A DNA stretch of 64,000 nucleotides from Asanoa iriomotensis. GTDB lineage: Bacteria; Actinomycetota; Actinomycetes; Mycobacteriales; Micromonosporaceae. The DNA is taken from contig NZ_BONC01000004.1 of assembly GCF_016862515.1 (NCBI RefSeq), positions 62,001 to 126,000 of the forward strand, written 5' to 3'. The notes beneath the pieces are model-generated. The model made no database searches. It was not told where the DNA came from and was given only the letters and a program-made list of their open reading frames with translations. How positions within the stretch are numbered: the stretch's first letter is position 1; the number at the start of each line of letters is the position of its first letter. This document shows, piece after piece, positions 27,587 through 52,109 of the stretch. Made by a program: the position numbers and the translations under genes.

Positions 27587-29161
27587 TCAGTGGTCCTCGG
27601 GGGGTGGTGGGTCGTCGCCGACCTGGCCCGGGCGGCGTAGGCCGCCTGGGCGGGGCTTGGTGGTGATCGCTTCGCCTTCGTCTTCCGGGCGGCGGCGCAG
27701 GCCGCCAGGGCGGGTGTCCGGGTCGCTGTCGTCCGCGGCAGGCCGGCGGCGCAGGCCGCCGGGGCGGGTGTCCGGGTCGCTGTCGTCCGTCGCGGGCCGG
27801 CGGCGCAGGCCGCCCGGGCGCGGGTCGGGCGTGATCGGGTCGGCGTCGGTGGGCCGGCGGAGGCGGCCCGGGCCCGCGGCGTCGCTGCCGAGCGGGGCCG
27901 CGAGGATGTCGGCAGCCGAACGGCGTTTGCGGACCGCGTCCGCGTCGCCGGCGATCACGTCGAAGGCCGAGCGGCGCTGGCGGCCGATCGCGGGCCTTCG
28001 CACGGGGGCGGCGTCGTCCTCGGCCGCCGGCGTCGACCCGGCAGCGGCCGGGTCGATCGCGGCCGGCGATGGTGCCGCGGGCTCGACCGGCGGCGGGACG
28101 ACCGGCGGCGGTGCCGGCTCGACCGCGACTTCGGGCGCCGGCTCCGGGACCACCGAAACGGGTGGGCGGAAGCGGTCCGCGTCCGGGGCCGGGCGGCGGC
28201 GCTGGGTGAAGGCCAGCGGTGACGCGCTGCGCGCCGATGCCGCGGCCCGGATGGGCGCCAGCCCGGCCACCACCGCGCTCGTGATGTCGGCCGCGTACGC
28301 GCCGTCCGGGTCGTAGTCCGGGTCGAAGACCGTCAGCTCGATGCCGAGGCAGTGCGGCGTGTCGACCAGGCCCGCGATCAGCAGCTCCAGCTCCGCGAAC
28401 GCGATCCCGCCCGGATCGGGCGCGTCGACCGCCGGCATCACCGCGGGGTCGAGCACGTCCACGTCGATGTGCACCCAGTAACCCGCGCAGTCCGCGAGCT
28501 GGTCCCGCGCCCACTGGGCCGTGCGGGCCGCTCCTTCCGCGCGCAGGGCGGGCACCGGGCGGGTCAGGATTCCCGCGGCCTGCAGGTCCAACCGGTACTC
28601 GTCCTGCGCGCGGATGCCGAGCACCACCACGTCGACGTCGCGGAAGTACGGTCTTCGGCCCTCGATCGCGGCCAGGTCCGCCTGGCCCCGGCCCGTCGCC
28701 AGCGCCAGGCCCTCGCCCGCCGCGGCGCCCACATAGGACGCGTTGCCCGGGTGCCGGAAGTCCGAATGACCGTCCACATAGACCAGGCCGATCCGGCCGC
28801 CGACCGCCTCGCCCAGGCGGTGCATGGCCAACGCCGAGCCCAGCAGGATCGAACAGTCGCCACCGACCACCACCGGGAACTCGTCGGCGTCGATGATCGC
28901 GCCGATGCGGCCGGCCAGGGCCACCGAATAGGCCGCGATCGCGTGCGCGTGCGCCACCCCGTCACCCGGGCGCCAGTCACCGACGTCATACCGCGGTGCC
29001 GTCAGGCAGCCCGCGTCGCGGGCCACCAGACGGCCGAGCAAACCGTGGTCGCGGAGCGCGCCGGGCGCCTTGGCGCAGCCGGGCGTCGACGTCGGGGTGG
29101 GCGGTCGCAGGCCCAGGTTCGACGGCGCGTCCAGGAGCGCTATCCGGCGCACGGCGCTCAC
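27587..29161 (-). CDS. Arginase/agmatinase-fold protein with repetitive C-terminal tail
   Basis: A 524-residue protein from GTG 29161. Residues 1-305 are an arginase-family domain with metal motifs DGHSDF and HIDVDVLDP; the first motif reads GGDCS instead of GGDHS, so one expected Mn ligand is Cys. Family members hydrolyse guanidino compounds to urea plus an amine. Residues 310-524 are predicted disordered, rich in Pro, Ala and Arg, and end in four RPGGLRR repeats. The tail is not part of any arginase I know. It lies 4 nt after the CnoX-like gene, in the same operon. With one ligand replaced the substrate is uncertain. Confidence 0.8.
   Translation of the reverse strand: MSAVRRIALLDAPSNLGLRPPTPTSTPGCAKAPGALRDHGLLGRLVARDAGCLTAPRYDVGDWRPGDGVAHAHAIAAYSVALAGRIGAIIDADEFPVVVGGDCSILLGSALAMHRLGEAVGGRIGLVYVDGHSDFRHPGNASYVGAAAGEGLALATGRGQADLAAIEGRRPYFRDVDVVVLGIRAQDEYRLDLQAAGILTRPVPALRAEGAARTAQWARDQLADCAGYWVHIDVDVLDPAVMPAVDAPDPGGIAFAELELLIAGLVDTPHCLGIELTVFDPDYDPDGAYAADITSAVVAGLAPIRAAASARSASPLAFTQRRRPAPDADRFRPPVSVVPEPAPEVAVEPAPPPVVPPPVEPAAPSPAAIDPAAAGSTPAAEDDAAPVRRPAIGRQRRSAFDVIAGDADAVRKRRSAADILAAPLGSDAAGPGRLRRPTDADPITPDPRPGGLRRRPATDDSDPDTRPGGLRRRPAADDSDPDTRPGGLRRRPEDEGEAITTKPRPGGLRRPGQVGDDPPPPEDH
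27640..27830 (-). repeat. Coding repeats, 54-bp units for RPGGLRR motifs
   Basis: Two near-identical 54-bp units (18 codons, RPGGLRRRP plus DDSDPDT) are flanked by two more diverged copies at the C-terminus of the arginase-fold protein. The plus strand shows GGGTGTCCGGGTCGCTGTCG twice at a 54-bp interval. Confidence 0.8.
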
Positions 29162-29165
29162 CGAC

Positions 29166-30110
29166 TCAGTACAGCGCGCTGGCCAGGGCCCGGCGGGCCG
29201 CCGAGACCGCCGGGTCGTCGGGACCGGCGATCGTGAACAGCGCCACCAGGTGTCTGCGGACCGTCTCCTTGTCGTCGCCCACGCTGCGCCTGACCAGGTC
29301 GACCAGCCGTTTGTAAGCCCGTTCGGCCTCGCCGCCCAGGACCTCCACGTCCGCCGCCAGCAGTTGCGCCGGGATGTCGGCCGGCGCGGCGGACGCGTCG
29401 GTCAGCACCTTGGCCGCGTCGACGCCCTGGACCCGGCGGTAGAGGCCGACCTGAGCGAGCCCGGCCTCGGCGGCCTGGTCGGCCGGCGATTCGAACAGAA
29501 TTTTCTTGTACGCGGCCTCGGCCGCCTCCAGGTCACCCACCATCAGCGCGTCGTCGGCCGACTCGAGGCGCGGGTCGGCCGGCGTCTCCACCTCGACACC
29601 GCCGGCCTTGAGCACCGCGCCGATCCACTGGCGGAGCTGCGACTCGGGCACGACGCCGGAGAACGCGTCGACCGGCTGGCCGCCGACCACCGCGAACACC
29701 ATCGGGATGCCCTGCACACGGAACATCTGGGCGAGCCGCTGGTTGGCGTCAACGTCAACCTTGGCGAGCACCCACGCGCCGGCGCCCTCGACGGCCAGCT
29801 TCTCCAGGATTGGCGAGAGCTGCTTGCACGGCTCGCACCACTCGGCCCAGAAGTCGATCACCACGGGGGTGGTCAGCGAGCGTTCGAGCACCTCGGTCTG
29901 GAACGTCGCCTCGGTGACGTCGATGATCGCGACGCCACCGCCGGGCACGTTGCCGGGAACGCCGCCCGGGACGCCACCAGCAGCCGGCGGCGGGGCCTGC
30001 GCGCCCGCGCCGGCACCGGCGGCGGGCGACGGGGATGCCGATGGGCGCAGCGCGCCGAGGTCGACCGCGCCGCGGGTGAAGATCGACGGAGAGGTCCGTG
30101 GTTCGCTCAT
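29166..30110 (-). CDS. CnoX/YbbN-like thioredoxin-TPR co-chaperone
   Basis: A 314-residue protein. Residues 1-55 are a low-complexity Ala/Gly/Pro segment. Residues 60-165 are a thioredoxin fold with WCEPCK (two-cysteine active site) and GIPMVFAV (cis-proline). Residues 190-314 are TPR-like helices (ALMVGDLEAAEAAYKKIL, YKRLVDLVRRSVGDD). This is the architecture of CnoX/YbbN, which protects proteins against oxidation and passes them to chaperonins. It follows the ABC permease by 6 nt and precedes the arginase-like gene by 4 nt. Confidence 0.88.
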   Translation of the reverse strand: MSEPRTSPSIFTRGAVDLGALRPSASPSPAAGAGAGAQAPPPAAGGVPGGVPGNVPGGGVAIIDVTEATFQTEVLERSLTTPVVIDFWAEWCEPCKQLSPILEKLAVEGAGAWVLAKVDVDANQRLAQMFRVQGIPMVFAVVGGQPVDAFSGVVPESQLRQWIGAVLKAGGVEVETPADPRLESADDALMVGDLEAAEAAYKKILFESPADQAAEAGLAQVGLYRRVQGVDAAKVLTDASAAPADIPAQLLAADVEVLGGEAERAYKRLVDLVRRSVGDDKETVRRHLVALFTIAGPDDPAVSAARRALASALY

Positions 30111-30116
30111 GGTTAC

Positions 30117-33100
30117 CTAGTCTCGCACGCGCAGCGCGCGACGCAGACCGACCGCCACGGTGGTGAACAGCAGGGCCGCCACGACCGCCGGAAGGACGAT
30201 CGCGACGGGCCGCGGCCAGGTCGGAGCCGCCAGCGCGAAGTCGTCATCAACGAAATAGGGGACATACTGGCCGACCACCGCCCAGGCGATGACGGCCGCC
30301 ACCAAACCGGTGACCACGGCCGCGACGGCGACCGGCAGATAGGTCCAGAGCACCCAGCTTCCACCGGTACGCGCCGCGAGTCCCTGCCGCCGCAGGGCGA
30401 CCAGGTCGTCGAGGGTGCGCCGGCGGTCGACGGCAGCCATCAGCCACATGCCGCACGCGGCGAGCAGCACCGCGACCCCGCCCGCCAACAGGTGGAACCA
30501 GACGGCCAGCGCCGGCCCGCGCGCGTCGAGCCGGTCCGCCGCCGCGGCGACCGAGTCGTGCCCGACGACCACCAGTCCCTGGGCGGCCAGCCGCTGCTCG
30601 ACATCGGCCGGTGCGGCCGGTCCGAGCCAGACCTCGGCCGTCGTGAGGTCCGTGGTGCCCGTGGCGACGCGCTCGGCGTACCCCAGATCCATCAGCAGTC
30701 CCGTGCCGATCCGCGGCAGCGCGCGGCCTTGCGCGACCGGCCGGATCGCGACCACGTTGCTGTCGAGACCCTCGGCCTCGCCCGACTTCGGTGGTGGCCC
30801 GCCGCTGAGCACGGGCACGTCGCTCGGTGTGCCGGCCGGCATGACCACCGTCGGCCGAGGCTGGATGACCGCACCCGGCACGACCACGTGCACGCCGCCG
30901 TCCTCCGCCGTCAGCTTCACGTCGTCCCGGCCCCGCCACTGCTCGGTGGTGAATGCCGGCACCACGTCGGTGAACGGCGCGGCCAGGTCGGTGCGCACCG
31001 CCAGCGAGCGGATCGTCAGCTCGGCGACGTCACCGCCGGACGCGGCGTAGACCGCCTCGATGCCCGCCAACCGGCAGCCGTCGACGCAGGCCTGGCTGGC
31101 CATCGTCCAGGTGTGGCGGCCAGGCGTGACCAGGTCGCTGGGTGCCCGCACCGGTGCACCTCCGGCCAGCGGGCGCAGCAGCGCGGTGAGCCGCAGTTCG
31201 GTGCCGGACGCGGTCGGTGGCGCGTAGTCGACGGTGAGCGCCAGCTCGACGCCCTTGACCACGATCGGCTCGTCGCCCGGCGGGCGCAGGGCGGCGGCGA
31301 TCTCGGCCGGCGATCCGCCGTACTCGGGGCGCCAGACGGCGACGCCGGGCAGCGCGGCGGTGTCGGCGAAGAGCACCTGTGGCCCGTCGACCACCTGCCG
31401 AAGGCCGACCGCCATCGCGAACCGGCCGTCGGGGTCGACCGCCCGCACCGCCGACCGCAGCGCGCCGGAGTCGACGGGTGCGACCTGGATCGTCCGTTCG
31501 GCGCCGGTCTCGACGGCGGCCCGGTCGGCCCGCGCCCGGTCGGCCACGTCGACCGCGGTGGTGGCGAAGCCGAGCACCGCGACCGCGACCGCGAGCAGCA
31601 CGAACAGCCGCTGGCTGCCCGGCCGGCGGGCGACCTGGAGGGCGCCGAGGGCGAGGCCCAGCCGGCCACGACGGACGGCCCGGCGACCGATCCGGCCGGC
31701 CAGCGGCACCAGCAGGCGCCCGGCCAGCACCGCGACCGCGAGCCCGATCAGCCCGGGCACCAGCAGCCCGAGGCCGAGCAACTGGCCGTCGAACGCACGG
31801 AGCTGCACGGCGGCGACGATCGCGAGCACGACCGCGCCCGCGTCGATCGCGGCGGTGCGCCAGGCGGCGCCGCGCGGCGGGACCCGGCGCAGCAGGTCGA
31901 CCACCGGGCTCGCCAGGTCCCGGCGCAGCGCTAGCAGACCGACCAGCACGGCGCCGGCGACCGCGACCAGGGCGGCGACCAGCGCACCCGGCGCCGGCGA
32001 CAGGTCGAGGACCGGGATCGGGCCGAACCGCGCGTCGGCCACCGCCCGGGTGGCGAGGGTGCCCGCCAGGTAGCCGATCGGCGCGCCGATCGCGATCGCG
32101 ATGACGCTCTCCCCCGCGGCCAGCCAGAACCGGCCGACCCGGGGTGCGCCGCGCAGGGCGATCAGCGCCTGCTCGTGCCGGCGGGCGGCGGTGGCACCGG
32201 CCACCGCGACGAAGATGACCAGCCAGCACAGCCCGATCAGGGGCAGGCCGGCGAGCGGCACGAGCTCGCGGGTCAGGGCGTCCGACGCGCGTACGCGCTC
32301 GAAGAGCTTGGGCAGCTCGTCGGTGAGCGCCGCGAACCGGGCGGTCTCGTCGTCGCTGCCCAGGGTCTCGCTCAGCTCGTCGAGCGCGGTGGCCAGCGTC
32401 GGCAACTGGTCGGCGTCGAACGCACCGGGCCTGGGTATCGCCTCGATGCTGCGGTTGTCGGACTCGTGCTCCAGCGCGTCGACCGACGGGCGACCCGTGA
32501 AGACGGGCTCCGCGGTGGTGTCGGGTGCCGTGGGCGCGAAGTAACCGCTGCGCCCCCAGTACGGCTCCGCCCGGTCGCGCGGCCGGTAGACGCCGACGAT
32601 CGTGGTCGGCGCCGGCCGCCCGGCGACCACCCAGGCCCGGCTGATCTCGTCGTAGCGGGCCCAGGCCAGCGACACCGACCGGCCGGGCGTCACGCCGAGC
32701 CGGCGCGCGGTGGACTCGCCGACCACCACCTCGCCGGCCGCCATCAGGCACCGGCCGCTGACGATCTCGATGTGCTCGCAGACCCCGTCGCGATAGGTGA
32801 ACCAGGAGATCTCGCCCTTGCCGGACTCGAGGCCCAGCACCGGCAGCACCGCGCTCACCACGGTGGTGAACCGGGGCAGGTCGGCCAGGTCGTTGGCGAG
32901 CGAGTCGAACCGGTCCCGCTGCGTGCTGTCGATCGGCGCCTGGACCGCGACGGTGCGCTCGGCCGGCGGGGTGTTGGCCACCTCGGCGACCGCCGCGGCC
33001 CGGTCGACCGCGTCCGTGTAGACCGGGCCGGCCACCGCCGCCGCGGTCGCCAGCGCGCTGAGCAGCACGATCAGCGCCGCCTGCACGCGGCGGGCGGTCA

Positions 33101-33125
33101 GCATCAGGCGCACCAGAGCGATCAC
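30117..33125 (-). CDS. FtsX-like ABC transporter permease A
   Basis: A 1002-residue integral-membrane protein. GTG 33125 overlaps the TGA of permease B as GTGA, indicating coupling. An N-terminal TM helix (ALIVLLSALATAAAVAG) is followed by a large extracellular region, a cluster of TM helices near residues 260-480, a second extracellular region, and a last TM trio ending in LRRALRVRD. The two FtsX/MacB-type permease modules mark a mechanotransmission-type exporter, not an importer. It forms a set with permease B and the ATPase at 36215. Cargo unknown; such actinobacterial transporters usually move lipids or peptides (family inference). Confidence 0.85.
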   Translation of the reverse strand: MIALVRLMLTARRVQAALIVLLSALATAAAVAGPVYTDAVDRAAAVAEVANTPPAERTVAVQAPIDSTQRDRFDSLANDLADLPRFTTVVSAVLPVLGLESGKGEISWFTYRDGVCEHIEIVSGRCLMAAGEVVVGESTARRLGVTPGRSVSLAWARYDEISRAWVVAGRPAPTTIVGVYRPRDRAEPYWGRSGYFAPTAPDTTAEPVFTGRPSVDALEHESDNRSIEAIPRPGAFDADQLPTLATALDELSETLGSDDETARFAALTDELPKLFERVRASDALTRELVPLAGLPLIGLCWLVIFVAVAGATAARRHEQALIALRGAPRVGRFWLAAGESVIAIAIGAPIGYLAGTLATRAVADARFGPIPVLDLSPAPGALVAALVAVAGAVLVGLLALRRDLASPVVDLLRRVPPRGAAWRTAAIDAGAVVLAIVAAVQLRAFDGQLLGLGLLVPGLIGLAVAVLAGRLLVPLAGRIGRRAVRRGRLGLALGALQVARRPGSQRLFVLLAVAVAVLGFATTAVDVADRARADRAAVETGAERTIQVAPVDSGALRSAVRAVDPDGRFAMAVGLRQVVDGPQVLFADTAALPGVAVWRPEYGGSPAEIAAALRPPGDEPIVVKGVELALTVDYAPPTASGTELRLTALLRPLAGGAPVRAPSDLVTPGRHTWTMASQACVDGCRLAGIEAVYAASGGDVAELTIRSLAVRTDLAAPFTDVVPAFTTEQWRGRDDVKLTAEDGGVHVVVPGAVIQPRPTVVMPAGTPSDVPVLSGGPPPKSGEAEGLDSNVVAIRPVAQGRALPRIGTGLLMDLGYAERVATGTTDLTTAEVWLGPAAPADVEQRLAAQGLVVVGHDSVAAAADRLDARGPALAVWFHLLAGGVAVLLAACGMWLMAAVDRRRTLDDLVALRRQGLAARTGGSWVLWTYLPVAVAAVVTGLVAAVIAWAVVGQYVPYFVDDDFALAAPTWPRPVAIVLPAVVAALLFTTVAVGLRRALRVRD

Positions 33126-36100
33126 GCGGACTCCTCGCGCCGGACGGCCCGCACCAGCAGGACGGCCGCGACCGCGCCGGCGGCGCCCACGACCAGCAGC
33201 CCGACGAGCAGGGCCAGGCCCAGCGGGAGCGGTTGCGGGCCGACGGCGACCGGCAGCACGTCCCAGCCGTCGACGAACAGCGGAATCGGCCGGCGGGTCA
33301 CGGCCTGGGCGAGCGCGCTCGCACCGAGCCCGAGCAGCACGGCGGCGACCGCGAGGCCGGCGTAGCCGCCCCAGGCGACCCGGCGGACCACCCGCGGCGG
33401 CAGGCCCTGCGCCCGCAGGGCGGCCAGCTCGGCGGCGCGCTCGGGCCGTTCGACGGCGGCCACGACGATGAACGCGCCGGCGGTGAGCAGGAGCCCGGCG
33501 AGCGCCGCGACGAGCTGGAAGCGCAGGGCGGACGGCGGTGCCTCGCGGCCGAGCCGGTCCGTCACGCTCGCGGCGGTCTCGTCGGAGATGACGGTCAGCC
33601 CGCCCGCGCGCAGCTTGTCGACGATGCCGGCCGGGGCGCCCGGCGCCAGCCACACCTGCGGGACGTCGACCGTGCCGGGGTTCTCGGCGATCCGGTCCGC
33701 GTACTCGAGGTCCATCAGATAGCCGAACCTGTGCACCGTGGGCAGCGTGCGGACCGCGCCGACCGTCCGCACCGGCACGTCCTCACCGCCGAACACGGCC
33801 AGCCGCGGGTCGCCCTCGGCCGGCGGTGACGTGTTGCCCGTGCTGACCACCGGCAGCGGGGCGGGCGCGTCGACGACGTACACCCGGGTGCTCCGGTCGT
33901 CCTCGCGGGCCGCGCGGACCGCGGTGATGGTCAGCGCGCCGTCGGCGGCGGTGAGGTTGGGACCGACCGTGGCCCGCCCGACCCCGGCCCGCCACCGGCT
34001 GACGTCGCCGAGCACGGCGGGCGGCGCGACCGGGCCGGCGGCGCCGCTGAGCCCGAAGACGGTGACGGTCGCGCCCGGTTCGGGAGCGACCGAGCGGCCG
34101 GTGAAGTTGCGGGTCACCGGCTCGATCCCGAGCAGCCGGCAGCCGGCGCCGCAGCCGCTCAACGGTGCGCGATAGGTGGCACGTGCGTCACCCAGCGGAC
34201 CGAACCGCAGGCTGACCTGGTCGCCGGCCTCGGTCGCCAGGTGCACGAGCACGAAGATCGGCTCGGCCGGAGCCGGGGCGGCCGCGCCGCCGGCCGCGCC
34301 GCCGGGGGTCAGCGGTGCCAACGGCGCCGGCATCATCTTGGCGGCCACGTCCAGCGTCAGCTCACCGTCCGCCGCGGACAGTGGCTCCGGTGCGGGCGGA
34401 CGGAGCAGCGCGGCCGGCGGCACGTCGCCGTACACCGGCTGCCAGTCGGCGACCGCCGCGAAGCGTGCGGAGTCGACGGCGAGCAGCACCGTCGCCGGCC
34501 CGTCGTTGCTGCGCACCACCGCCATCGCCTGCGTGCCGCCCGGGTCCGCGGCGCGCACCGCCGCGACGAGCTGCGCCCGGCTGCGGGCTTGCACGGTGAG
34601 CACCCGGTCGGCGCCCAGCTCGTGCCGGGCCCGCTCGGTCCGGCCGTCGCTCGCCGCTGCCCAGCCGCCGACCGCCGTGCCGAGCAGCGCGACCGCGATC
34701 ACCAGCAGCGCGAACACCCGGTGGGTGCCCGGCCGACGGGCGAGCTGGGTGGCGCCGAGCGCGGCCGGCACCCGGCCGGACCGCAGTGCGCGGCGACCGA
34801 CCCGGCCGGCCAGCGGCGTGAGCAGGCGGGCGGCGGCCAGCGCGACGAGCACCGCGATCAGCGCGGGTGCGAGCAGCGCGAGCCCGCTGGTGTCGTCCTC
34901 GGAGGCGGTCGCGTAGCTCTGGTAGAGGCCGGCGGCGGCCACCAGCACGATGATCAGGTCGACCACCTCGGCCCGCCAGCCGCGCCGCCGCGACGGCACG
35001 TGCCGGAGCAGGTCGGTGACCGGCGCCCGCATGCCGCCCGCGTCGGCGGCCACCGCGGCGAGCAACGCGCCGGCCAGCGCGGCCAGCGCCGCGATGCCGG
35101 AGAACAGCGCGGCGGAACCCGGCTCGGGCACCTGGCCCGCCACCAGCCGCGCACCGCCGAGGCCCACGACCACGCCCAACACGGCACCGCCGACCATCGG
35201 CACCGCGCTCTGCGCGATCGCTAGGTACCAGAGCCGCCAGCGCGCCGCGCCGCGCAGCTTGAGCAGACCGATGTCGGGACGGCGCTGCTCGGCGGTGTGC
35301 CGGACCGCGAAGAACAGACCGAACCAGCAGAGCACCAGCAGTTGTACGGCGGCGACGCCGACACCGAGCGTGACCAGGTCGCGTTCCTGGTCGATCCGGT
35401 TCGCCAGAGTGACCGCGTCGGTGGTGACCCGCCAGGCTCCGCTGTTGCGGGACACGGCGGAGAGGTCGGCGCGCAGCCCCGCCAGGTCGTCGAGGAACAG
35501 CCGCTCCGGCACCCGCAGGTGGTAGTCGGCGAGGATCTCCTTGACCGGCAGCGCGGCGACCGTGTCGGAGGCGACGAACGCCGGGTCGCCGGGGCCGTCC
35601 GCGCCCGGGTCGAGGGCCGCCGAGCCGCCGAAGTCCGTCAGCGCCCAGTAGGCGCCGAGCGGGTCGCCGATCTGGTAGGTCCCGGCGACGGTGAACTCGA
35701 TCGGCGGTTGCGACGCGAGAACGAACTCGACCTTGTCGCCGGCACCGACCTGCAGCGTCTGCGCGGTGCGCCGGCTGAGCAGCACCTCACCGGCGGCCTG
35801 CGGGCACTTGCCCTCGACGTCGAGGTGCTCGCACATCTCGTCGCGGTAGACCAGCCGCAGGTTGATCCGGGCCAGCTCGGACGCGATCGTGCCGGACTCG
35901 CGCAGTGACACCGTGGTGCCGGCCCCAGGCACGTCGACCACGTCGCCGGCCTGCTCGCCGACCTCGGACACGACCTCGTCACCCGGGCGGACGCTGCCGC
36001 CGGGCGCGATCGAGCCCTCGACCCGGCCGGCGACCCGCACGACCAGCTCGCTGGACCGGGCGCCGTCGACGTCGGCCACGGCGACCGAGCGCTCGGCGGC

Positions 36101-36214
36101 ACGCGCGTACCAGGGCGCCGCGGCGGCGACGGCGACCGCGAGGCCGGTGAGCACGAGGACCGTGGCCGCCTGTGCGCGCCGGGACCGCAGCGCACCCCGA
36201 ACGACACCAGCCAT
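33122..36214 (-). CDS. FtsX-like ABC transporter permease B
   Basis: A 1030-residue permease homologous to the neighbouring one. It has an N-terminal TM helix, an extracellular domain containing CEHLDVEGKCPQAAGEV (also present in permease A as CEHIEIVSGRC), a TM cluster, a second extracellular domain with CGAGCRLLGIEPV and a TM trio at the C-terminus. The paired cysteines in both loops could form disulfides. The ATG directly follows the TAA of the ATPase gene. Together with permease A it could form a heterodimeric exporter. Confidence 0.85.
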   Translation of the reverse strand: MAGVVRGALRSRRAQAATVLVLTGLAVAVAAAAPWYARAAERSVAVADVDGARSSELVVRVAGRVEGSIAPGGSVRPGDEVVSEVGEQAGDVVDVPGAGTTVSLRESGTIASELARINLRLVYRDEMCEHLDVEGKCPQAAGEVLLSRRTAQTLQVGAGDKVEFVLASQPPIEFTVAGTYQIGDPLGAYWALTDFGGSAALDPGADGPGDPAFVASDTVAALPVKEILADYHLRVPERLFLDDLAGLRADLSAVSRNSGAWRVTTDAVTLANRIDQERDLVTLGVGVAAVQLLVLCWFGLFFAVRHTAEQRRPDIGLLKLRGAARWRLWYLAIAQSAVPMVGGAVLGVVVGLGGARLVAGQVPEPGSAALFSGIAALAALAGALLAAVAADAGGMRAPVTDLLRHVPSRRRGWRAEVVDLIIVLVAAAGLYQSYATASEDDTSGLALLAPALIAVLVALAAARLLTPLAGRVGRRALRSGRVPAALGATQLARRPGTHRVFALLVIAVALLGTAVGGWAAASDGRTERARHELGADRVLTVQARSRAQLVAAVRAADPGGTQAMAVVRSNDGPATVLLAVDSARFAAVADWQPVYGDVPPAALLRPPAPEPLSAADGELTLDVAAKMMPAPLAPLTPGGAAGGAAAPAPAEPIFVLVHLATEAGDQVSLRFGPLGDARATYRAPLSGCGAGCRLLGIEPVTRNFTGRSVAPEPGATVTVFGLSGAAGPVAPPAVLGDVSRWRAGVGRATVGPNLTAADGALTITAVRAAREDDRSTRVYVVDAPAPLPVVSTGNTSPPAEGDPRLAVFGGEDVPVRTVGAVRTLPTVHRFGYLMDLEYADRIAENPGTVDVPQVWLAPGAPAGIVDKLRAGGLTVISDETAASVTDRLGREAPPSALRFQLVAALAGLLLTAGAFIVVAAVERPERAAELAALRAQGLPPRVVRRVAWGGYAGLAVAAVLLGLGASALAQAVTRRPIPLFVDGWDVLPVAVGPQPLPLGLALLVGLLVVGAAGAVAAVLLVRAVRREESA

Positions 36215-37081
36215 TTAGGCGGCGTCGCCGGTGTGGGTTTCCGGTATCTGCGCGGCACCGCCCGGAACGAGCGTCACGGTGCCGTCAGCCTGGTCGACGG
36301 TGAACAGGGTGCCGGGTGGGAAATGGCCGAGTACGTCGGGTGGTAGCTGGACGGTGCCGTCGCCGGCGACGACCGCGAAGTCCTGGCCGCCGCGCCCTTC
36401 GGCGCCGACCCGGCCGTCGCGGATGGTGACGGCGCGGCCGAGCCGCGCACCGACCTCGGCGTCGTGGGTCACCACGACCACGGTGGTGCCGCGCTCGGCG
36501 TTGACCGTTTCCAGCGCGTCGAGCACCTCGTCGCGGCCGTGCGAGTCGAGCTGGCTGGTCGGCTCGTCGACGAGCAGCAGGCCGGGCGAGGCGGCGATGC
36601 CGACCGCGAGCGCCGCCCGCTGGCGGGCACCCGGTGCCAGGTCGGTCAGCCGGGCCGCGCCTTTGCCGCGCAGGCCGACCAGGTCGAGGATGCGCTCCGG
36701 GTCTTCGAGCTCGATGCCCTCGGTGCGGGCGGCGCGGCGCTGGGCGAGCCAGACGTTGCGCTCCAGCGACGCGTAGGGCAGCAGGTTGCGGGCCGCGCCC
36801 TGGAGCACCACGCCGATCTGGGTGCCGCGCAGCCGGGAGATCTCGGCGTCGCTGAGCTTGCCGAGGTCGTAGGTGCCGACGTTGACCCGGCCCGCGGACG
36901 GGCGCATCAACCCTGCGAGCAGCGCGACCAACGTGGACTTGCCGGAGCCGGACGGGCCGACGAGCGCGAGCATCTCGCCCGGCCCGATCGACAGGTCGAC
37001 GCCCGAGAGGGCGACGACGTCCCCCGCCTCGGCGCGATAGATGTGCACCACCCGGCGGCAAGCGACTGCGAGACCCGACAC
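36215..37081 (-). CDS. ABC exporter ATPase with AbrB-like C-terminal tail
   Basis: A 288-residue protein from GTG 37081. Walker A GPSGSGKST, Q-loop VLQGAARN, Walker B LLLVDEPTS and H-loop VVTHDAEVG are present. The ABC signature is LAPGARQR instead of LSGGQQQR. Residues 1-220 are the MacB/LolD-type ATPase. Residues 225-285 are an extra domain whose pattern (FAVVAGDGTVQLPPDVLGHFPPGTLFTV) resembles an AbrB/SpoVT swapped hairpin. The ATPase at 40065 carries the same tail. It couples to two permeases downstream. Confidence 0.88.
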   Translation of the reverse strand: MSGLAVACRRVVHIYRAEAGDVVALSGVDLSIGPGEMLALVGPSGSGKSTLVALLAGLMRPSAGRVNVGTYDLGKLSDAEISRLRGTQIGVVLQGAARNLLPYASLERNVWLAQRRAARTEGIELEDPERILDLVGLRGKGAARLTDLAPGARQRAALAVGIAASPGLLLVDEPTSQLDSHGRDEVLDALETVNAERGTTVVVVTHDAEVGARLGRAVTIRDGRVGAEGRGGQDFAVVAGDGTVQLPPDVLGHFPPGTLFTVDQADGTVTLVPGGAAQIPETHTGDAA

Positions 37082-49344: not shown

Positions 49345-50583
49345 ATGCCCCAGCAGCAGTCCTCCCTTGGCTTCTTCGAGAACGCGAACTCGACAGAAGA
49401 GTTCACCGTCGCTCTGCGCGGCTACGACCGCAGGCAGGTCGACGACACCCTCGCACGTCTCCAGAACCGCCTCGCCGCTGCCGAGAAGGAGCGCGCCGAC
49501 GCGGAGCAGAAGACCAACGACGCGCAGCGCCGCCTGCGCCAGGCCGAGCAGCGGCTCGGCGCGCTCGAGCAGAAGCTGAACGACACCAACAAGCAGCTCG
49601 AGGAAAACAACCGCCCGACGCTGTCGGGTCTGGGCACCCGGGTCGAGCAGATCCTGCGCCTCGCCGAGGAGCAGGCCAACGACCACCGTGGCGAGGCCAA
49701 GCGCGAGTCCGAGGGCATCCTCTCCGCGGCCCGGCTCGAGGCCCGCGAGATCACCGACAAGGCGCGCGCCGAGGCCGCGGCCATGAAGGCCAGCGCCGAG
49801 CGCGAGGCGGGCAGCGTCCGCACGGCCGCCGAGCGCGAGGCCGCCGAGGTCCGCGTGCAGGCCCGCCGCGAGGCCGACACGCTGCGCGCCGACGCCGACC
49901 GCGAGACCAAGCAGCTGCGCACGGTCACCGCGCACGAGGTCGCCGAGCTCAAGTCGACGGTCGAGCGCGAGGTCGCCACTCTGCGGGCCACCGCCGAGCG
50001 CGAGATCACCCAGCTGCGCGCCAAGGCCGGCCGCGAGGCCGAGGAGAAGCGCGCCGAGGCCACCAAGATGCTCAGCGACGCCCGCGACAAGCGCGACAAG
50101 GATCTGCAGGCCCTCGCGCTCGAGCTGGCCGAGCGCCGCGAGAAGGCCGAGCGCGAAGAGTCCGAGCGGCACGCCGCCCAGGTCGCGCAGACCCAGAAGC
50201 TGGTCGCCGAGGCCGAGGAGCGCGCCCGCGCCGCCGAGGACCGGGCCAAGGAGATCGAGCAGCGCGCCGAGGCGCGCCGCGTCGAGTCCGAGCGCACCGC
50301 CGCGGAGACCGTCGACCGGGCCCGCAACGCGGCCGACAAGGCTCTCAAGGAAGCGCAGTCCGAAGCGCACCGCCACCTCACCGAGGCGCGCACCGAGGCC
50401 GAGATCACCACCAACGCCGCACGGCGCGAGGTCGAAGACCTCACCCGCCAGAAGGACGCGGTCACCGCACAGCTCGGCCAGATGCTCTCCGGCCTCGCCG
50501 GCATCGTCCCCTCGGTGGCGGCGCCCAAGCAGGAGAGCAAGCAGGACAAGGACGCCGCGGACAAGTCGGCGGCCAACGCCTGA
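49345..50583 (+). CDS. FilP/Scy-like polar-growth coiled-coil protein
   Basis: A 412-residue protein that is almost entirely coiled coil (residues 40-375), very rich in Ala, Glu and Arg. The N-terminus has TVALRGYDRRQVDDTL, the DivIVA-type membrane-binding signature shared with the neighbour, and residues 90-110 have the RVEQILRLAEEQA segment found in actinobacterial coiled-coil cytoskeletal proteins. The C-terminal 40 residues are a Lys/Asp tail. In S. coelicolor, filP and scy lie beside mce and thiolase, and this context is preserved here. It is longer than FilP (about 310 residues) and much shorter than Scy. ATG 49345 follows AGGA. Confidence 0.8.
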   Translation: MPQQQSSLGFFENANSTEEFTVALRGYDRRQVDDTLARLQNRLAAAEKERADAEQKTNDAQRRLRQAEQRLGALEQKLNDTNKQLEENNRPTLSGLGTRVEQILRLAEEQANDHRGEAKRESEGILSAARLEAREITDKARAEAAAMKASAEREAGSVRTAAEREAAEVRVQARREADTLRADADRETKQLRTVTAHEVAELKSTVEREVATLRATAEREITQLRAKAGREAEEKRAEATKMLSDARDKRDKDLQALALELAERREKAEREESERHAAQVAQTQKLVAEAEERARAAEDRAKEIEQRAEARRVESERTAAETVDRARNAADKALKEAQSEAHRHLTEARTEAEITTNAARREVEDLTRQKDAVTAQLGQMLSGLAGIVPSVAAPKQESKQDKDAADKSAANA

Positions 50584-50614
50584 TCCGGCGGCTGGGGCAA
50601 ACGGCTGGCAACGT

Positions 50615-50646
50615 CAGGCCGCATCGCGAACACGCGGTGCGGCCTG
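50615..50646. terminator. Terminator between the two coiled-coil genes
   Basis: CAGGCCGCATCGCG pairs with CGCGGTGCGGCCTG (14 bp, one A-G mismatch) around AACA, 31 bp beyond the stop of the first coiled-coil gene. The stem can extend outward (GGCAAC with GTTGCC across a small bulge). Confidence 0.75.
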
Positions 50647-50786
50647 TTGCCGTGCCCGGGCTCAGCTAGCACCGCGGTGCTCCGCTAATATTGGTCTACT
50701 TCCCTCAATTCGGCCGCAACAGTCGCACGTCCCGCGATGCGGTGTGTATCGGCGCGGCGCGGGACGTTGCGTGTGAGGATGTGACC

Positions 50787-52109
50787 ATGTCCAACGGCGC
50801 GGAACTGTTCGCTCTGGGTGGCGACCCCTCTACCCCCCACTTCGAGTCCGCGCTGCGCGGCTATGACCGCCGGCAGGTCGACCGCTACGTCAGCCAGGCC
50901 GAGCAGGAGATCGCCGCCCTGCTGGCCGAGCGCGAGCATCGCTTTGGCGAGATCCACATGCTGTCGGCGCAGGTCGAGCAGCTCCAGGTCGAGCTGGCCA
51001 CCGTGCGCCGCGAGGCCGCGAGCATCGACGTCGTGCGGTTTCGCCACCTCGGGCCGCGGGTCGAGCAGATCCTCGCGCTGGCCGAGGAGCAGGCCGACGA
51101 GATCCGCGCCGAGGCACACCAGTCGGTGCAGTCCCAGCGCGACCGGGCCGACAACCTCGTCGACGAGGCCCGCGGGCACGCGGCGTCGGCGATCCGCGAC
51201 TTCGAGCTCGCCCTGGCCGCCCGGCGCGGCGAGGAGGAGAAGGTCGACGCCGACCGCCGGGCGGAGGTCGAGGCCCAGCTCGCCGCGACCCACGCCGAGA
51301 TCCGGCGGCTGCACGGCGAGTCCCGCGACATCCTGAGCACCGCGCGGCAGGAGGCCGACGCGGCCCGCGCCGCGGTCGAGCGCGAGCTGGCCGCGCAGCG
51401 AGCCGGCGCCGAGCGGGAGATCTCGGCGCTGCGTGCGGACACCGAGCAGCTCGTCGCCGCCCAGCGCGCCGCGGTGCAGCGGGAGACCACCGACCAGCGG
51501 GCCGGGCTGGAGCGCGAGGGTGCGCAGCAGCGGGCAGCGCTGGAGGAGTCGGCGGCCAACGGCCGCGCGGCCATCGAGCAGGAGCTGGGCCGGCACCGCG
51601 CCGCGCTCGAGCAGCAGATCAGCGAGCGGCAGCGCGACGCCGAGCGGGACTACGCGACGCGCAGCGAGTCCGCCGACCGGGAGCTGACCCAGTGGCGCAC
51701 CGGCATCGAGCAGCAGGTGACCGCGCAGCGGGTCGAGGCCGAGCGGTACGCGGTCGAGCTGCGCCGCCAGGCCGAGGAGCACGCGGCGGCGATCCGCCGG
51801 CAGATCGACGAGGAATCCGAGCGGCTCGCCGGCACCCGGCACGAGACCGAGTCGGCGCGCAAGCAGCTCGCCGAGGCGCAGGCGGAGCTGGCCAAGGCAC
51901 ACCAGGCGCTGGCCGAGGTACGCGCGGCGGCCGCGACACCGGCGCCGGCACCCGATCCCGCACCGGCCGAGGAGACCGCGGTGGCTGAGGTGGCTGAGGT
52001 GGCCCCGCCCGCCGAGGCCAACGGCAACGGGAAGGTCGACGCCGACTCGCTCAAGGCGACCGTCGATGCCGCCGACGCCCAGAAGAGCCGTACGCTCGCC
52101 GCCGACTAA
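50787..52109 (+). CDS. FilP/Scy-like coiled-coil protein, second copy
   Basis: A 440-residue protein, ATG 50787 with GAGG 8 nt upstream. It has the same design as its neighbour: an N-terminal ALRGYDRRQVDRYV motif, a RVEQILALAEEQADEI segment, coiled coil over residues 35-390, and then an Ala/Pro/Glu linker and a charged C-terminus. The two are tandem paralogues that probably co-polymerise at the hyphal tip or septum with DivIVA (inference). The coiled coil of the second is more Gln-rich (QRAG, QQRA repeats). It has its own promoter after a terminator. Confidence 0.8.
   Translation: MSNGAELFALGGDPSTPHFESALRGYDRRQVDRYVSQAEQEIAALLAEREHRFGEIHMLSAQVEQLQVELATVRREAASIDVVRFRHLGPRVEQILALAEEQADEIRAEAHQSVQSQRDRADNLVDEARGHAASAIRDFELALAARRGEEEKVDADRRAEVEAQLAATHAEIRRLHGESRDILSTARQEADAARAAVERELAAQRAGAEREISALRADTEQLVAAQRAAVQRETTDQRAGLEREGAQQRAALEESAANGRAAIEQELGRHRAALEQQISERQRDAERDYATRSESADRELTQWRTGIEQQVTAQRVEAERYAVELRRQAEEHAAAIRRQIDEESERLAGTRHETESARKQLAEAQAELAKAHQALAEVRAAAATPAPAPDPAPAEETAVAEVAEVAPPAEANGNGKVDADSLKATVDAADAQKSRTLAAD

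Follow-up and report, generated by a model that had tools for sequence, protein, structure and literature searches.

The gene studied here occupies positions 27587-29161 of the window, by which we mean the whole 64,000-nucleotide stretch of Asanoa DNA that was analysed, and it follows a second gene on the same strand. The two genes, and the two parts of the arginase-like product, are these:

29166-30110, reverse strand: CnoX/YbbN-like gene with thioredoxin and TPR domains (Pfam), 4 bp upstream of the arginase-fold gene
27587-29161, reverse strand: arginase-fold gene, 524 amino acids, GTG start
28247-29161, reverse strand: arginase domain, residues 1-305, by homology
27590-28234, reverse strand: low-complexity tail, residues 310-524 (about 215 residues), net charge 0

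The reading frame reads as coding along its whole length, tail included, and holds the GGDC, DGHSDF and HIDVDVLDP motifs and the repeat tail that a preliminary description had read from it. Its product matches the Pfam Arginase family (PF00491) over residues 22-299 (E 1.5e-28; 100.5 bits against a gathering cut-off of 22), which shows by homology that it belongs to the ureohydrolase (arginase) superfamily, as do Escherichia coli agmatinase SpeB and formimidoylglutamase HutG. The scores against the family models lie below their cut-offs, at 81.4 bits against a curated 227.6 for arginase (TIGR01229), 36.3 against 174.3 for agmatinase (TIGR01230, NCBIfam) and 53.3 against 229.15 for formimidoylglutamase (TIGR01227). 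Among solved structures, the closest to profile A1, built from 23 homologues, are arginases, with E-values of about 1e-33 to 1e-28 in the first five rows; the best match, PDB 2ef4/2eiv (E 2e-33), which we take to be Thermus thermophilus arginase, has its metal ligands in the same order. A predicted structure of the domain, built from 27 close sequences, is poor (mean pLDDT 50.9), so the pocket geometry discussed below rests on alignments.

Spread of the gene

Within the Micromonosporaceae, this arginase-like gene belongs to the core genome. Of 150 genomes sampled from this major antibiotic-producing family, 149 carry it at E ≤1e-60, among them all 134 of good quality, and 43 of 44 genera are represented; in 147 of the 150 the match reaches E 5e-150 or better. 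One genus (g167, genomes G357 and G377) has a best match of about 1e-90, which may be a different relative. In a sample across the class, 24 of 296 genomes carry the gene, three of the 24 being from the Micromonosporaceae. Domain identity to the closest relatives is 86-98% in the best 80 of 291 named loci, a choice that biases the named set to close relatives; the nearest are Asanoa siamensis (98%) and A. ishikariensis (94%). The viral contigs searched held no relative of the protein. Neither the literature nor the family-model searches yielded a function for the gene, and the portions available of the literature on ureohydrolases, DcsB and Micromonospora arginase-family genes held nothing on the family with this Cys site.

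A rewritten active site

The positions that define the site, assigned by alignment with solved arginases, are as follows:

28853-28864, reverse strand: GGDC, residues 100-103, with Cys103 at the place of the arginase metal ligand His101
28757-28774, reverse strand: DGHSDF, residues 130-135, with ligands D130, H132 and D134
28445-28471, reverse strand: HIDVDVLDP, residues 231-239, with ligands D233 and D235
28424-28435, reverse strand: PAVD, residues 243-246, with the subfamily-specific Asp246, beside the arginase Thr246 position
28310-28339, reverse strand: ELTVFDPDYD, residues 275-284, with Val278 at the place of the guanidinium-binding Glu277

Six residues bind metal in arginase, His101 among them, according to PMC5648838. 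Five of the six are kept in the window protein (D130, H132, D134, D233 and D235), and the sixth is Cys103. The preliminary description had noticed the Cys and had overlooked a further change: arginase 2ef4/2eiv has GGDH, GNVHG with His141 and DLVEVNP with Glu277, whereas the window protein retains none of the three, having C103, A148 and V278 at these places. We counted these positions in 47 aligned homologues, made up of the 23 rows of profile A1 and 24 class-level homologues. Cys stands at position 103 and Ala or Gly at the His141 place in all 47, Asp at position 246 in 46 (L160 is cut there), and Val or Ile at the Glu277 place in 45 (L157 is masked and L160 cut). A wider alignment of 106 rows, from which 14 of the 49 added rows (misframed or unalignable) were left out and in which the window protein is present twice, falls mainly into two patterns at the places of His101, His141, residue 246 and Glu277: 24 rows have His, His, Gly and Glu, and 48 have Cys, Ala or Gly, Asp, and Val or Ile. 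A small third group (L005, L253 and L256) has both the Asp and the Glu. Some other actinomycete arginase-family proteins (L243, L245-L248 and L252) have Asn at the His101 place, in GGDNS or GGDNA.

The Cys had been described as atypical, and this did not survive comparison. It occurs in all 47 of the homologues counted above, and of the six arginase-family genes in the Asanoa genome four have Cys at the His101 place (GGDCS twice, GGECG and SGDCL), the three besides the window gene being L003, L005 and L006 (GGECG, GGDCS and SGDCL). Cys also aligns at this place in a solved enzyme, the N-omega-hydroxy-L-arginine amidinohydrolase DcsB (PDB 6lug and others), and we rejected the view of Cys103 as an oddity of one protein. 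The DcsB Cys reportedly binds a manganese. DcsB shares the DxHxD and DxD motifs as well and has no equivalent of His141; its aligned segments in 6lug are TCSVSLA, DGHGDF, TGYLGGMVL and HIDWDVLEP. An altered metal site had been taken to suggest either another substrate or a single-metal enzyme. Since five of six ligands remain and a Cys can be the sixth, as the aligned Cys of DcsB illustrates, two metals appear likelier than one; we dropped the single metal as a default reading, and Cys103 would fill the ligand place as in DcsB and complete a two-metal site.

The other half of that suggestion, a different substrate, gains support, from the lost His141 and Glu277 equivalents and not from the Cys. 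SpeB differs from the window protein in that its guanidine-binding Glu is replaced by Val in the latter, and we take Glu274 of agmatinase to be the counterpart of arginase Glu277. In PMC8125230, Glu274 of E. coli agmatinase is described as binding guanidine, the E274A variant retaining 1-2% of activity. Judged from these alignments, the protein is probably neither an arginase nor an agmatinase. Its substrate may be another small C-N compound, such as an amidine, a substituted guanidine or a ureide, and Asp246 may perhaps play the role of Glu277.

The shared Cys and the missing His141 raise the possibility that the protein is simply a relative of DcsB in function, one that hydrolyses N-hydroxy-guanidines, for instance N-omega-hydroxy-L-arginine, at a two-manganese site with a Cys ligand and that does not need His141. 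We consider this quite unlikely. DcsB keeps an equivalent of Glu277 (GVELAELN), whereas the window protein has ELTVFDP and its family Val or Ile, which argues that the Cys-site family is not simply DcsB. The profile A1 search also ranks other arginases first, 6lug being absent among the best 60 of its 75 rows, and the 281-residue chain of 6lug has no tail of the kind seen here.

A second alternative is that the protein is a pseudoenzyme in which the arginase fold serves as a scaffold and the tail is the working part. The loss of both the His141 and Glu277 equivalents would fit, as would the state of the second-metal His in the class-level homologues, where it is Ser in eight of 24 and falls in a gap in five. 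We nevertheless hold a pseudoenzyme to be unlikely, because the domain shares 86-98% identity with those of the best 80 named relatives, because it persists in some genera that have no tail, and because the profile A1 rows keep their ligands: H132 is present in 22 of 23, L031 having Asn, and the other ligands are kept in all. The homologues with Ser belong to one genus (L140, L141, L143, L144 and L146-L149, with for instance DGSADF or DASPDF), and another clade (L151-L154 and L157) has a one-residue gap at the same place. These relatives may be one-metal or dead forms, and on this alignment a single metal would suit some of the relatives from outside the Micromonosporaceae better than it suits the profile A1 rows. 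For the window protein, a two-metal hydrolase remains the reading that we carry forward.

A variable tail with a conserved peptide

Within the tail, the following copies of a short motif can be distinguished:

27854-27874, reverse strand: GPGRLRR, residues 430-436, 18.2 bits with a profile built from Micromonospora alone
27801-27820, 27747-27766, 27693-27712 and 27633-27652, reverse strand (span 27633-27820): four RPGGLRR copies

The tail reads as coding by its GC content at the three codon positions (0.85, 0.68 and 0.90, against 0.78, 0.52 and 0.93 in the domain), and from its composition it would be disordered. Relatives differ widely in tail length, between 0 and about 1050 residues, and show no conservation of the linker. 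The preliminary description had called the tail basic and suited to binding RNA or an acidic polymer. This proved unsupported and we rejected it: the net charge is 0 in the window protein and, among 87 tails (those shorter than 40 residues or cut were left out, as were L069, L092 and L104, which look frame-shifted), negative in 79, zero in three and positive in five. In L104 the motif is intact in another frame, and the shift may reflect an error in sequencing or else a break that occurred recently. The longest tail, of about 1050 residues (L045), ends in an 18-residue motif sequence followed by nine residues, with a profile score of only 6.4 bits.

What is conserved in these tails is a peptide near the C terminus. 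In Micromonospora, EPVGPPASAGPGLLRR is present in 37 of 57 complete tails in the long form GP....GPG.LR[RQ], or in 38 tails if one cut tail is counted. This pattern forces the G-P, G-P-G and L-R, so that the free fixed residues are only the E, P and V ahead of them, and these are invariant in all 38. Each core position uses two to four synonymous codons, and the columns on both sides vary freely. In Actinoplanes and Paractinoplanes, LPATRPGMLRP occurs in 12 of 13 complete tails; here the pattern LPATRPG.LRP is itself forced, and the freedom lies in neighbours such as D, S and P and in the M, which is found in 12 of 12. Of the 76 complete named tails, 60 carry a shorter common motif, [GR]PGx[LM]R[RPQ], compared with 0.23% of shuffled tails (Micromonospora 45 of 57, Actinoplanes with Paractinoplanes 13 of 13, Asanoa two of two, the four other tails none), and the remaining 16 lack it. 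It lies mostly near the C terminus, 7-85 residues from it, behind linkers of 56-737 residues. Because the sequences are related, these motif and residue counts are not independent.

A profile built from 22 Micromonospora tails carried the search further. With the best score of 1,960 shuffled tails (11.7 bits) as the threshold, it detects the peptide in 36 of 76 tails outside its training set: 25 from Micromonospora, seven Asanoa rows (two genomes appearing twice) and four from other genera. The last four (L014-L017) score 21-44 bits and represent four further genera; no named locus comes closer to their domains than 88-93% identity. The profile misses L008 (11.4 bits), L013, L018, L045 and the Actinoplanes form. 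The profile was also run on eight whole genomes, with scores for 150 of the 408-805 first-look candidates in each. Below E 1e-3 it matches nothing but the arginase-like gene, once per genome and, in that of L104, in another frame of the tail; the next-best match (E 0.006) is in an unrelated frame. The GPGRLRR of the window protein is likely the counterpart of Micromonospora EPVGPPASAGPGLLRR, given its score.

Asanoa appears to have multiplied this conserved peptide into its RPGGLRR repeats. In the window protein a single GPGRLRR is followed by four RPGGLRR at intervals of 18-20 residues, and the six Asanoa genomes have 4-13 copies each, with 27 of 33 spacings at 17-21 residues. Of 39 copies, 29 are RPGGLRR and eight GPGRLRR, two being looser matches with another set of residues. 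In all six genomes the first copy reads PGRLRR and is apparently the ancestral copy. Since the RPGGLRR copies were selected by exact match, first and second codon positions agree nearly by construction; at third positions the 29 copies differ by 0.546 per codon, compared with 0.534 and 0.595 in the flanks. Third positions are thus as diverged as the flanks, which suggests that most RPGGLRR copies are old and have been kept at the protein level; in the window, each of the four has a different proline codon. Over 27690-27820, Tandem Repeats Finder detects 2.4 copies of a 54-bp unit with 93% matches, and this tandem is best read as a more recent duplication on top of older copies. A degenerate DNA pattern for RPGGLRR has 21 sites in the genome, four of them in this gene, and its reverse has seven; the other 17 sites were counted at the DNA level, whatever their frame, and the idea that RPGGLRR is a motif of many proteins of the genome found no support. 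A broader pattern, GPGxLRR, was of no use because of its many chance matches.

It could be argued that the tail is a passenger, a set of functionless GC-rich repeats growing by slippage, as its erratic length, its unconserved linker and the 16 named tails that have no motif might suggest. We regard this as improbable, since the motif residues are kept while the codons vary in Micromonospora, Actinoplanes and Asanoa, and since the motif mostly stands near the C terminus behind linkers of very different lengths. A docking peptide carried on a tether is the reading of the tail that we retain. The earlier proposal that the tail binds a partner gains support in outline only, from a short motif that is conserved at the protein level in several genera.

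The CnoX-like neighbour and candidate partners

The gene directly upstream encodes a thioredoxin domain followed by TPR_20, and it is this product, rather than the arginase-like protein, that resembles the chaperedoxin CnoX/YbbN. That the two form an operon, as first described, is borne out and is a conserved trait: in 99 of 100 loci (20 plus the 80 named, at least two genomes being in both sets) a CnoX-like gene is directly upstream on the same strand, the sole exception (L056) coming from another family. In 95 of the 99 the two genes are separated by no more than 150 bp; the median distance is 66 bp, and in Asanoa it is 4 bp. A further 28 loci add 25 cases, the gene being missing at L032 (from the genome of L056), L029 and L181. 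In genome G019 (L029; L180 and L181) it lies about 2.1 kb off, and a second copy of the enzyme gene has none within 16 kb. The tail-less genera (L026, L027, L030 and L031) retain the CnoX-like gene beside the enzyme gene, so the pair is independent of the tail.

Taking the site and the tail together, we find it fairly probable that the protein is a metal-dependent hydrolase of ureohydrolase fold with two metals at a Cys-containing site, a C-N substrate that is neither arginine nor agmatine, and a tethered docking peptide. The tail would act as the tether, allowing the [GR]PGxLR[RP] peptide to dock on a partner almost regardless of how far away it lies, and multiplication of the peptide to 4-13 copies in Asanoa would raise the avidity. 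As partner we would place the CnoX-like protein of the same operon first, and the surface of the enzyme itself, or else an adjacent subunit, second. For partner and substrate alike these are guesses, and their ranking draws only on the operon and the alignments. The protein joins an arginase active site that has been rewritten (Cys for His101, His141 and Glu277 lost, Asp246 gained) to a bacterial short linear motif, which stands on a linker whose length varies greatly and which one genus has multiplied. A motif of this size can be synthesised as a peptide, which makes partner and function directly testable.

The second candidate belongs to a different account, in which a two-metal guanidine or amidine hydrolase docks its tail on its own oligomer and the pairing with CnoX is accidental. 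Arginases and agmatinases are oligomers. This account would sit well with the separated pair in G019 and with the class-level homologues, since no CnoX-like gene was found in the flanks (up to 1.5 kb) of the 24 loci. We see it as doubtful, though worth weighing, because the pair has been kept in 99 of 100 loci while the genes farther upstream changed. Among these, 80 of the 100 loci have a mutase-like gene and 14-15 have FtsX-like genes, both labels being our own reading.

Going beyond the docking peptide as such, the C-terminal peptide might dock specifically on the CnoX-like partner, which would in turn keep or reset the Cys-ligated metal centre under oxidative stress. We offer this as a speculative and rather unlikely elaboration. 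If it were true, hydrolysis of a nitrogen compound would be switched by redox state, and Asanoa would have tuned the docking by multiplying the peptide.

The neighbours of 21 class-level homologue loci included no gene pointing to a substrate. An acetyltransferase-like gene adjoins the homologue or lies one gene off in eight of these loci, all from one genus; the label is our own reading of the sequence, and the genes were called with a home-made caller that failed on L180 and L181. In the window, ABC and FtsX-like genes (30117-37051) lie directly upstream of the CnoX-like gene, as they do in a few other genera; most of the loci examined have the mutase-like gene there instead. Farther along, at 49345-52109, two adjoining genes start with a coiled-coil sequence (LRGYDRRQVD) that is presumably DivIVA-like.
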